DNA of 35,045 nt from assembly GCA_016930445.1 (NCBI GenBank), contig JAFGGT010000065.1:1-35045 (forward strand), written 5' to 3'. A program made the translations under genes and the position numbers. This document shows positions 13,191 through 18,186 of the stretch, one piece after another (within the stretch, counting starts at the first letter, position 1; each line of letters begins with the position of its first letter). The notes below the pieces were generated by a model. The model was given only the letters and a program-made list of their open reading frames with translations. It was not told the origin of the DNA and made no database searches. The DNA comes from Candidatus Methanofastidiosia archaeon. GTDB lineage: Archaea > Methanobacteriota_B > Thermococci > Methanofastidiosales > NM3.

Positions 13191-13955
13191 ATGAGGATCG
13201 AATTTATTCCTGTTGACAAGGATGACACGTTGATGTTCATTGTAGAAGGCATTGACGCTACGTTTGCAAACTCCCTGAGAAGGGCCATCATGACGGAAGT
13301 TCCGGTCTATGCATGCAATGAGGTCGTATTCTATACGAATTCAAGCCCATTGTATGATGAGGTGATCTCTCATAGGATAGGGCTGGTCCCGCTTACCACG
13401 CCTGAGGGAACTGACAAGGACAGCAAGATGGTCACTATGAGCCTGGAGGCCCAAGGGCCTACAACGGTGTATTCGGGAAGCCTTGTCTCAGACGATCCAA
13501 GCGTTCAACCGGTAAACGACGAATTCCCATTGCTCAAGTTAGGCCCAGGCCAGAGCATCTCCCTGAACGCGGAGTGCTATGTAGGATACGGCAAGGATCA
13601 TGTCAAATGGCAGCCAGGCCTTGTCGGCTACAAGAACTATCCGATAATTGATGTCGACAAGCAAAGATGCAATCTCTGCGGCGAGTGTGTGAAGACATGT
13701 CCGACCAAGATACTTGGTATCGAGGAGGGGAGCATCGTTGTTCTGGAGATATTCAAATGCACATTCTGCAAGTCTTGTGAGGACGCGTGCAAGAGGCTCA
13801 ACGAGAACGAGATCATTACCGTAAGGCCAATGAATGACAAGTTCATATTCAGGATCGAGTCATTTGGAAATATGAGCACAAAAGATTTATTAAACACTGC
13901 CTTGAATGTCATTGAAAAAAAGGCAGAGAGGCTTGACCAACTCTTGAATGAATAA
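13191..13955 (+). CDS. rpoD: DNA-directed RNA polymerase subunit D (RpoD/Rpb3-like) with 2x[4Fe-4S]-type ferredoxin insertion
   Basis: FIVEGIDATFANSLRRAIMTEVPVYACNEVVFYTNSSPLYDEVISHRIGLVPL; insertion CNLCGECVKTCP...CTFCKSCEDAC. Confidence 0.95.
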   Translation: MRIEFIPVDKDDTLMFIVEGIDATFANSLRRAIMTEVPVYACNEVVFYTNSSPLYDEVISHRIGLVPLTTPEGTDKDSKMVTMSLEAQGPTTVYSGSLVSDDPSVQPVNDEFPLLKLGPGQSISLNAECYVGYGKDHVKWQPGLVGYKNYPIIDVDKQRCNLCGECVKTCPTKILGIEEGSIVVLEIFKCTFCKSCEDACKRLNENEIITVRPMNDKFIFRIESFGNMSTKDLLNTALNVIEKKAERLDQLLNE

Positions 13956-15302: not shown

Positions 15303-15494
15303 ATGATAATTCCGATAAGATGTTTCACATGCGGGAAGCCCATAGGGCATCTCTTCAAGACATACTCCGAGAGGACCATCAGCGAACACCCTAAGGATGT
15401 TCTCGATGACCTCGGGCTTGAAAGGTATTGCTGCAGGAGGATGTTCCTGACACATGTTAACCTTATAGATGAGGTGTTAGACTTTAGCGTTTAA
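15303..15494 (+). CDS. rpoN: DNA-directed RNA polymerase subunit N (Rpb10-like)
   Basis: [36 protein letters not shown] zinc ribbon. Confidence 0.95.
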
Positions 15495-15501
15495 AGAATG
15501 T

Positions 15502-15579
15502 GGGACCGTAGGGTAGCTTGGACCATCCTCTCACCTTGGGGTGGTGGACACCCGAGTTCAAATCTCGGCGGTCCCACCA
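15502..15579 (+). tRNA. tRNA-Pro (anticodon GGG), CCA encoded
   Basis: Acceptor GGGACCG/CGGTCCC + A + CCA; anticodon arm TCACC-TTGGGGT-GGTGG; TTCAAAT loop. Confidence 0.9.
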
Positions 15580-15606: not shown

Positions 15607-16182
15607 ATGAGCATAGTCGAGGACTTTGCATTGCGAAAGCTGTATATCGAATCCAGGAACATGCTGGAGATAGACCTGCTGTCCGCCAATTCATTTGGAA
15701 GGGCGCAGATCAAAAGCGATGTGGACATAGATGACCTATATACGGTCATAGTCCCGGAGCTGATGGGCCTAAACATTCTGGAGCAAGGGGTGTTCGATGA
15801 CATCCTTAGCGACGTGATCGACGACCCAAGGGTCAGATTCGGCTTCTCTTTGGCATGCGCGAAGGCTGCGGCCTCGTTCCTTGGACTTCCGCTATACCAA
15901 TACCTAGGGGGCATCTTCAACAAAGTGATGCCACAGATAGTCCTTGGCGGTTCGCTGATAGATGAGAACTTCGCTGAGCTTGGAAGGGCAGGCAATCTGG
16001 AGTACCTTAGATTGGACACGCTCTCATCGCTGTCCAAGATGGACAGGGCCTCCTGCATCAAGTATGTCGAGGAGGGCAGCTGGCATGTGGCTTACGGCCT
16101 TTCATTCAAGTTCGTGGAGATATATAAGAGAGAAGACATTAATGAATATTTAAGAATTAAAGAACATATGTCGGAGGTGTAA
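15607..16182 (+). CDS. Truncated, catalytically incomplete enolase-like protein (about 191 aa)
   Basis: N-terminal enolase fold signature [25 protein letters not shown] and [10 protein letters not shown]-terminal LRIKEHM resembles the LRIEEEL end of enolase; rpoN-eno-rps2 position. Most of the TIM barrel is absent. Track start at 15541 lies inside tRNA-Pro, so ATG 15607 is preferred. Confidence 0.75.
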
Positions 16183-16184
16183 TT

Positions 16185-16781
16185 TTGACAGATGATATGT
16201 TAGTTCCCCTTGATCAATACCTTGCTTCTGGTATTCACATAGGCACACAACAAAAGACGAAGGATATGGACAAGTACATCTACAGGGTCCGCCAGGATGG
16301 CCTATATGTGCTTGACATCAAGACGACCGACCAGAGATTGAGGTCTGTCGCGAACTTTTTGGCCAACTATGACCCTACGAGGATTCTGGTCGTTTCGACC
16401 CGTGTATATGGTCACAAGCCGGTCAAGACATTTGCGCAGTACATCAATTGCAGGTCCGTTGCCGGAAGGTTCATTCCAGGCATGCTCACAAACCCCAACA
16501 ACAACGACTTCTTGGAGCCAGACCTCCTGATAATCACCGACCCCAGGGCCGACTATCAGGCGCTTAAGGAGGCTTCGAACATCGGCATTCCAATAATAGC
16601 ACTTTGCGATTCTGAGAACATGCTATCAAATGTGGACATATCTGTGCCTACGAACAACAAGGGACGAAAGGCCCTTTCCTTGATATACTACCTTCTAGCA
16701 AGGGAGCTTCTAAGGAAGAAGGGCACGATACCCGAGGACGGGGACATAGATTTCGGTTTCGAGGAATTCAAGCAACCTTAG
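16185..16781 (+). CDS. rpsB: Ribosomal protein S2 (uS2)
   Basis: [81 protein letters not shown]. Confidence 0.95.
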
Positions 16782-16842: not shown

Positions 16843-16986
16843 GCGGGGGTTGCCGAGATTGGTCAAAGGCGCTGGACTTAAGATCTAATGCAGTTCTCTT
16901 CCAGGATGCTATGTGGAAAGGATAGGTGCCTGAGATAGGAAATCCAGTTTCGCAGGAATCCGCGGGTTCAAATCCCGCCCCCCGCA
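16843..16986 (+). tRNA. tRNA-Leu (anticodon TAA) with a 59-nt intron at position 37/38
   Basis: Acceptor GCGGGGG/CCCCCGC + A; CTGGA-CTTAAG|intron|A-TCCAG; variable arm TTC-GCAG-GAA; T arm GCGGG-TTCAAAT-CCCGC. Confidence 0.9.
16883..16941 (+). other. Archaeal tRNA intron (bulge-helix-bulge)
   Basis: Central helix CTTA (16877-16880) with TAGG (16936-16939); 3-nt bulges AG^A and AA^A at the two cut sites; outer anticodon stem CTGGA/TCCAG. Confidence 0.85.
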
Positions 16987-16989
16987 CCT
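16962..16989 (+). repeat. Putative attL: 3' end of tRNA-Leu(UAA)
   Basis: GCGGGTTCAAATCCCGCCCCCCGCACCT, near-identical to 18203-18229. Confidence 0.7.
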
Positions 16990-17244
16990 ATGCGCAACGA
17001 ATAAGAAGGTCTATTGAAGCAGATAAAGGCATTATAGACAAAAATAAGGTAGGAAAACTAGGATTTATAGTATCCGGCTATTCTGTAAGGAAATTCCTGG
17101 AAGATTGTAGGACACAAAACTAAACAAAATAATTAATATTCGTATTTATTAGTGCCCATACAGATGAATCAGCTCTGGATTATAAGAGCACATATAAAAA
17201 CAAAAAACGATAACTTTATATATTTTTGTGCCCATACAAAAAAT

Positions 17245-18186
17245 ATGGTTTACTTAGAGAAGATTGAACGGGGAGACAAGACATATTATTATGTTACGAA
17301 AAACTTCAGAATTAGCAATAAAAAGTGGAAGAAAATAAGAAAGTATGCCGGTGATGAGCCCCCTTCCAAAGAACAGACAAAGAAAGCAGTTGAGGAGATT
17401 GAAAAGGAAGCATTGAAAAAAGGCCTCGTGAAACCTGCCTCTAGATACGCATATTTAAGCGATGAAGAGGCAGAGAAATTGCAAGATTTGAAAGAGGTCT
17501 TCAAGAAGTGGTACGGCAAACTGGATCCTGTTGAAAAAAAGAAGTATGAAGAAGATTTTATTGTTAGGTTCACTTACAACTCAAATGCCATCGAAGGCAA
17601 CCGTTTGAGCCTTCGCGAAACAAGCATGATCCTGATAGAGAATATAATTCCTGCTGGCGCTACTCCAAATGATTACAATGAAGCCATAAACTCAAAAGAT
17701 TGTTATGAGTTCACGAAAGGATATGCTGGTGAGTTTAACCAGAAGTTTTTGCTAAAGATCCACAAACTGCTTACCCAGAACACAAATTGCAAAATTGTAG
17801 GCGGTTATAGGGGCCATGAAGTCAGGATTTCAGGTTCGGAATGGATCCCCCCAACATATGAAAGAGTGAAGGAAGAAATGAGGAAGATTTTCCAGTGGTA
17901 CTATTCTGCAAGGGAGAAATTGCATCCTGTCGAATTAGGGGCGATTCTTCATAATAAAATAGTCAGGGTACATCCGTTTGCGGACGGTAATGGAAGAACC
18001 TCAAGGGTTGTAATGAACTGGATATTGATGAAAAGCAATTTTCCAATGTCCTATATAGAACTAAGAGATAAAATCAAGTATTATGATGCAGTTGAAGAAG
18101 GGGATAAAGGCAATGACGAGGCAATAGTACATTACATTGCCAAATTGCTGATGGAACAGCACACATTTAAATCAGAAGCGAGTTAA
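17245..18186 (+). CDS. Fic domain protein (putative AMPylase)
   Basis: Fic core HPFADGNGRTSR; inhibitory-helix-like motif SNAIEG (S/TxxxE[G/N]); ATG at 17245 preferred over the track start GTG 17152. Confidence 0.88.
   Translation: MVYLEKIERGDKTYYYVTKNFRISNKKWKKIRKYAGDEPPSKEQTKKAVEEIEKEALKKGLVKPASRYAYLSDEEAEKLQDLKEVFKKWYGKLDPVEKKKYEEDFIVRFTYNSNAIEGNRLSLRETSMILIENIIPAGATPNDYNEAINSKDCYEFTKGYAGEFNQKFLLKIHKLLTQNTNCKIVGGYRGHEVRISGSEWIPPTYERVKEEMRKIFQWYYSAREKLHPVELGAILHNKIVRVHPFADGNGRTSRVVMNWILMKSNFPMSYIELRDKIKYYDAVEEGDKGNDEAIVHYIAKLLMEQHTFKSEAS

Follow-up and report, generated by a model that had tools for sequence, protein, structure and literature searches.

The short open reading frame between tRNA-Pro(GGG) and rps2 in the window (the whole stretch of 35,045 nucleotides analysed here, from a Candidatus Methanofastidiosia archaeon) almost certainly encodes a conserved, non-catalytic and strongly reduced operon enolase. 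As to its role, the sequence suggests a reduced enolase that works as a dimerisation module, a partner or adaptor, coupled to rps2. We give this reading a probability of about one half.

A miniature enolase of about 191 amino acids had been described at this place in an earlier note made from the letters alone, and the ORF is confirmed. Its product (mini-enolase below) consists of an intact enolase N-domain, a variable linker and the last ~55 enolase residues (Table 1). The linker was delimited by alignments, by its dN/dS of 0.26 and by low model confidence. The N-module bears R10 and E21, equivalent to R8 and E20 of yeast enolase, and the C-module ends in a helix with N179, R183 and E186 (yeast N410, R414 and E417). 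A GTG start at position 15541 was rejected: it lies inside tRNA-Pro, and the common start of the homologs sits just before [S/E/T][IV][IV]ED. In the window and in the homologs the stop codon of the mini-enolase gene overlaps the rps2 start (TAATG) or nearly touches it. Moreover, the homologs have GGAG-like purines ahead of the stop, resembling the Shine-Dalgarno site of rps2.

Table 1. Positions in the window of the mini-enolase gene, its parts and the adjoining genes
Feature	Positions	Strand	Remarks
Miniature pseudo-enolase gene	15607..16182	+	191 aa, ATG start, TAA stop
N-module, residues 2-111	15610..15939	+	Enolase N-terminal domain, active-site loop shortened
Variable linker, residues 112-136	15940..16014	+	In place of most of the enolase barrel
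C-module, residues 137-191	16015..16179	+	Remnant of the barrel's last strands and helices (alignment)
GGAGGTG in the last codons of the gene	16173..16179	+	Likely Shine-Dalgarno site of rps2
tRNA-Pro(GGG)	15502..15579	+	Directly upstream of the mini-enolase gene; ARAGORN; same position in relatives
rpoN (RNA polymerase subunit N)	15303..15494	+	ORF and synteny marker
rps2 (ribosomal protein uS2)	16185..16781	+	Starts 2 nt past the mini-enolase stop; synteny marker

Some other features of the neighbourhood were seen. An intron-containing tRNA just past rps2 (16843-16988, + strand) was missed by the default ARAGORN run. It was called Ser(TGA) with a 59-nt intron; we suggest that it is tRNA-Leu(TAA) with an anticodon-loop intron, because of the anticodon-loop sequence and because relatives have tRNA-Leu(TAA) there. 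At 13191-13955 (+) an rpoD-like RNA polymerase subunit carries two ferredoxin-type Cys motifs (CNLCGECVKTCP and CTFCKSCEDAC), as is familiar for rpoD of other archaea. A 344-aa ORF with a Fic-like HPFADGNGR motif lies downstream of the operon (17152-18186, +).

The enolase N-domain is retained, as the earlier note had it: TIGR01060 (enolase, EC 4.2.1.11; ~420 aa) matches the mini-enolase over this domain with E=8e-10, the best PDB match in phmmer is an enolase (3e-11), and a profile search gives 4e-19. The TIGR01060 score of 37.9 bits is below the curated cut-off of 300. PF03952 scores 26.9 bits on the window protein (E=6e-6), below the gathering score of 35, and matches 10 of the 10 family members scanned at E<=0.1, the best at 3e-10. 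Enolase_C has no match in the mini-enolase, nor anywhere in its own assembly in a family search. The C-terminus, which had been called enolase-like, does align with the final part of operon enolases and of 342-aa relatives described below. Structure prediction, one of the checks proposed in the earlier note, gave a divided answer. In the AlphaFold2 model residues ~1-110 form the enolase N-domain with pLDDT mostly >90; this part has a PF03952-type fold (three strands plus helices) and matches enolases in Foldseek with E=1e-6. The fold of the C-module was not modelled confidently (pLDDT <50); the model alignment took in the window protein, a homolog (L052) and enolase N-domains, with a single aligned relative over the C-module. 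The best Foldseek matches of the model are enolases, among them some in moonlighting complexes, e.g. E. coli enolase with an RNase E segment (2fym), and a lower match is the GlucD/GlucDRP heterotetramer of E. coli (PDB 4gyp).

The active site is gone. The earlier note had listed the PSGAST loop, the metal ligands and the catalytic Lys and His as missing, and in alignments all of these are absent or substituted, as is the SHRSGE motif. More specifically, the three Mg ligands, the catalytic Lys/Glu/His, the loop Ser, SHRSGE and the Lys of IKTG are absent or substituted in all 18 mini-enolases found (see below). The lost residues are S42, H158, E167, E208, D245, E289, D316, H369, R370, S371 and K392; 3 of the 18 carry a stray Ser in the S42 column, and the base-Lys column is unreliably aligned.

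Two further checks proposed earlier, short homologs and dN/dS, came out in favour of a gene under selection. In a search of 60 related genomes, homologs of 191-200 aa occur in 18 genomes of one order, the window's included; the order is probably Methanofastidiosales or a near relative. They are spread over three families (f1, f2 and f4) and, leaving aside the window's own genome, share 36-63% identity with the window protein. The gene order is rpl13-rps9-rpoN-tRNAPro(GGG)-X-rps2 for each of them (X being the mini-enolase gene), as far as the contigs extend. The expected place of eno in archaea, between rpoN/rpoK and rps2, was found in part: rpoN and tRNA-Pro are present, and rpoK was not seen between rpoN and the mini-enolase gene. 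None of the 18 genomes has a stop or frameshift in the gene, down to 36% identity. In seven f4 genomes the whole gene has a mean dN/dS (as a ratio of means) of 0.089, close to 0.09, and by part the values are 0.067 for the N-module, 0.262 for the linker and 0.077 for the C-module; the controls, rps2 and full-length enolase, give 0.024 and 0.027. Thus selection acts on the protein sequence of both modules, some three times less strictly than on housekeeping genes, and is weak in the linker. The catalytic residues are lost while purifying selection persists, as is expected of a pseudoenzyme. The earlier claim of a non-catalytic homolog that is not in recent decay is borne out by the short homologs, synteny, purifying selection and loss of all catalytic residues. 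The retention of the gene is observed directly; that it has been neofunctionalised we infer.

Regarding genomes of the order that do not have the gene, one f2 genome (G011) also lacks rps2, i.e. the locus was not assembled. In family f3 (L136, L137) rpoN and rps2 are present with no enolase remnant between them. This is a real and complete loss of the operon enolase, so the mini-enolase is dispensable in some lineages. Note that mcrA is present in the genome of the window and in most f1 and f4 genomes, and none was seen in f2 and f3 genomes; carrying this gene, the window's lineage and most f1/f4 genomes are probably methanogens.

Other archaea hold larger proteins in the same slot. In f5 genomes, which belong to the same class and were called Thermococcaceae-like from their PRK08350 matches, it is occupied by a 342-aa protein of NCBIfam NF006223/PRK08350, a family annotated only as 'hypothetical protein' (341 aa). 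The f5 genomes listed have three matches each to an operon-type enolase query, which would fit a single full-length enolase along with a 342-aa protein hit in separate segments; the f5 matches shown are all either full-length enolase or 342-aa protein. The catalytic and metal positions of the 342-aa proteins are lost or changed except for the base Lys and, partly, E167. In a 60-genome sample of Methanogenium's phylum a roughly full-length enolase adjoins rps2 in 27 of the best 30 loci, a set biased by the query to operon-type enolases. The operon enolase of a Bathyarchaeota genome has the catalytic motifs and is the sole enolase found there. A different state is seen in G103, with a 368-aa degenerate enolase in the slot (L211, G103:C9, 1506-2609) and a full-length one elsewhere. 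G103 is from another archaeal phylum, and its degenerate enolase is an independent case.

In a tree built on 168 shared columns the operon-type enolases, the 342-aa proteins and the mini-enolases are split from other enolases (100/100). The far side of the split holds the enolases of bacteria and the remaining archaeal ones, among them the full-length enolases of this class. Mini-enolases form one clade (100/99) and 342-aa proteins another (100/100); a common clade of the two is not rejected (p-AU 0.22). Origin of the mini-enolase from the order's own full-length enolases was rejected by the AU test (p=0.02), and synteny is also against it. The tree and the AU tests indicate that the working enolase is of another type and that the copy in the operon is the one that was displaced. 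It is close to certain that the mini-enolase descends from the operon-type enolase of archaea and is a reduced form without catalysis. In the simplest history the operon enolase was displaced by a second one, ceased to be catalytic and became shorter: the second enzyme would have taken over metabolism, the operon copy would then have lost its active site, in one event before the two orders diverged or in two, and most of the barrel would have been deleted afterwards in the order of the mini-enolase.

A full-length enolase elsewhere in the genome, which the earlier note had recommended looking for, is present in 14 of the 18 genomes with the mini-enolase and was not found in the window's own assembly, which is fragmented and 84%-complete. 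Among f1 and f4, the genomes examined have a Hel308-like helicase gene next to the full-length enolase. This neighbour is also missing from the window's own assembly, pointing to a gap, and the mini-enolase as the sole enolase of this genome is not supported. In the four mini-enolase genomes without a full-length enolase the Hel308-like gene is missing (G000 and G007), cut by the contig edge (G015) or followed closely by the contig end (G002). Because the usual neighbour is missing or at a contig end, these absences are probably assembly gaps. A second, divergent full-length enolase paralog was seen in two genomes (L038/L157 in G003:C18 and L041/L156 in G011:C135). It has SERSGQ for SHRSGE and PCGRSxGK for PSGASTG, adjoins a glycerate 2-kinase-looking gene and possibly catalyses a different reaction of the enolase superfamily.

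Residues of the dimer interface have a different fate from those of the active site. R8, E20, R414 and E417 (yeast numbering, as below) make the salt bridges of the enolase dimer interface, R8 presumably pairing with E417. These four, together with N410, are invariant in 18 of 18 mini-enolases and in 7 of 7 342-aa proteins; E417 varies among full-length enolases. Of the 54 columns that full-length enolases conserve, mini-enolases keep 19, and all four salt-bridge residues are among them, which has a probability of ~1% by chance in a simple count on residues chosen post hoc. In the degenerate enolase of G103 R8 is replaced by S and E417 by Q, while E20 and R414 are unchanged; this paired change, a single case, is suggestive of co-loss. 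Previously it has been shown that the dimer of S. aureus enolase involves beta1-3, alpha5 and alpha12, the last helix (PMC4667285), and E20 and R414 have been named as residues allowing the enolase homodimer (PMC9452966).

Since interface residues are kept while the active site is lost, we propose that the function of the mini-enolase lies in dimerisation. The N-domain and the last helix would be kept because together they form the dimer interface. The protein might be a regulatory subunit without catalytic activity that pairs with full-length enolase, or an adaptor that pairs with itself, and may be made in step with rps2 through translational coupling. Retention of these residues could serve folding instead of pairing, and the gene is gone altogether from family f3. 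The more specific form of this proposal, in which an enolase reduced to its dimer interface is a dedicated non-catalytic subunit pairing with and controlling the separately acquired working enolase, its dose tied to ribosomal-protein synthesis via rps2, is tentative, perhaps one chance among several.

Equally tentative is an adaptor, homodimeric or monomeric, that is unrelated to enolase activity and acts on the ribosome, RNA polymerase or RNA. Throughout the class the gene has stayed in the rpl13-rps9-rpoN-rps2 operon, without a break and tightly coupled to rps2, which is in line with it, as are the Foldseek matches to moonlighting complexes such as the one with the RNase E segment. However, the catalytic enolase of other archaea already occupies this place in the operon, so that the location is inherited and need not mean a role in translation; nor did we see any new conserved motif for RNA binding. 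It is rather unlikely that the gene is a relic being eroded stepwise, which persists mainly since its 3' end carries the ribosome-binding site of rps2 and the coupling. The stepwise series from full-length through 342 and ~190 aa to absence, the purines within the last codons and the independent degenerate enolase of G103 would fit erosion, but the N-module, distant from rps2, has a dN/dS of 0.07, and reading frames are intact in 18 genomes that are as little as 36% identical. A minimal enzyme of another reaction, using residues of the N-domain and C-module, is very improbable: polar residues off the interface are invariant (e.g. E51, E59, Q60, D64, K86, H160), but there is no barrel and no metal site, neither H160 nor K86 corresponds to an active-site position of enolase, and catalysis in the enolase superfamily requires the barrel. 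Assembly error or recent deletion can be dismissed, although the genome itself is fragmented, because 18 assemblies of three families share the short form.

We found no paper in the literature on archaeal enolase pseudoenzymes, on a Thermococcus enolase-like protein or on the enolase of Methanofastidiosa. Among known systems, GlucDRP (4gyp), presumably of low activity, is an enolase-superfamily paralog in complex with a relative, the heterotetramer with GlucD, and a weak fold match to the mini-enolase; it differs in being full-length and of another subgroup, and the pairing of the mini-enolase is putative. The canonical TIGR01060 enolase elsewhere in these genomes shares the N-domain fold and the dimer-interface residues with the mini-enolase, but it belongs to the other enolase clade and is catalytic. 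The operon-type archaeal enolase (phosphopyruvate hydratase; e.g. Bathyarchaeota L056 and many Halobacteriota) has the same slot and the same side of the tree, but is full-length with catalytic residues present. Together these proteins give a series for a displaced central enzyme, from full-length enolase to 342 aa, to ~190 aa and to absence, in which a protein that lost its active site and was trimmed to ~190 residues is still under selection in a core operon. PRK08350/NF006223 has in common with the mini-enolase the slot (rpoN-tRNAPro-X-rps2), the class, the N-domain, the C-terminal helix, the dimer quartet and the lost active site. It differs in keeping most of the barrel and being ~150 aa longer, and the NF006223 model scores 27.5 bits on the mini-enolase, below its cut-off of 624. 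The comparison makes the PRK08350 family interpretable, with enolase-type dimerisation as a prediction for the genetically tractable Thermococcales.
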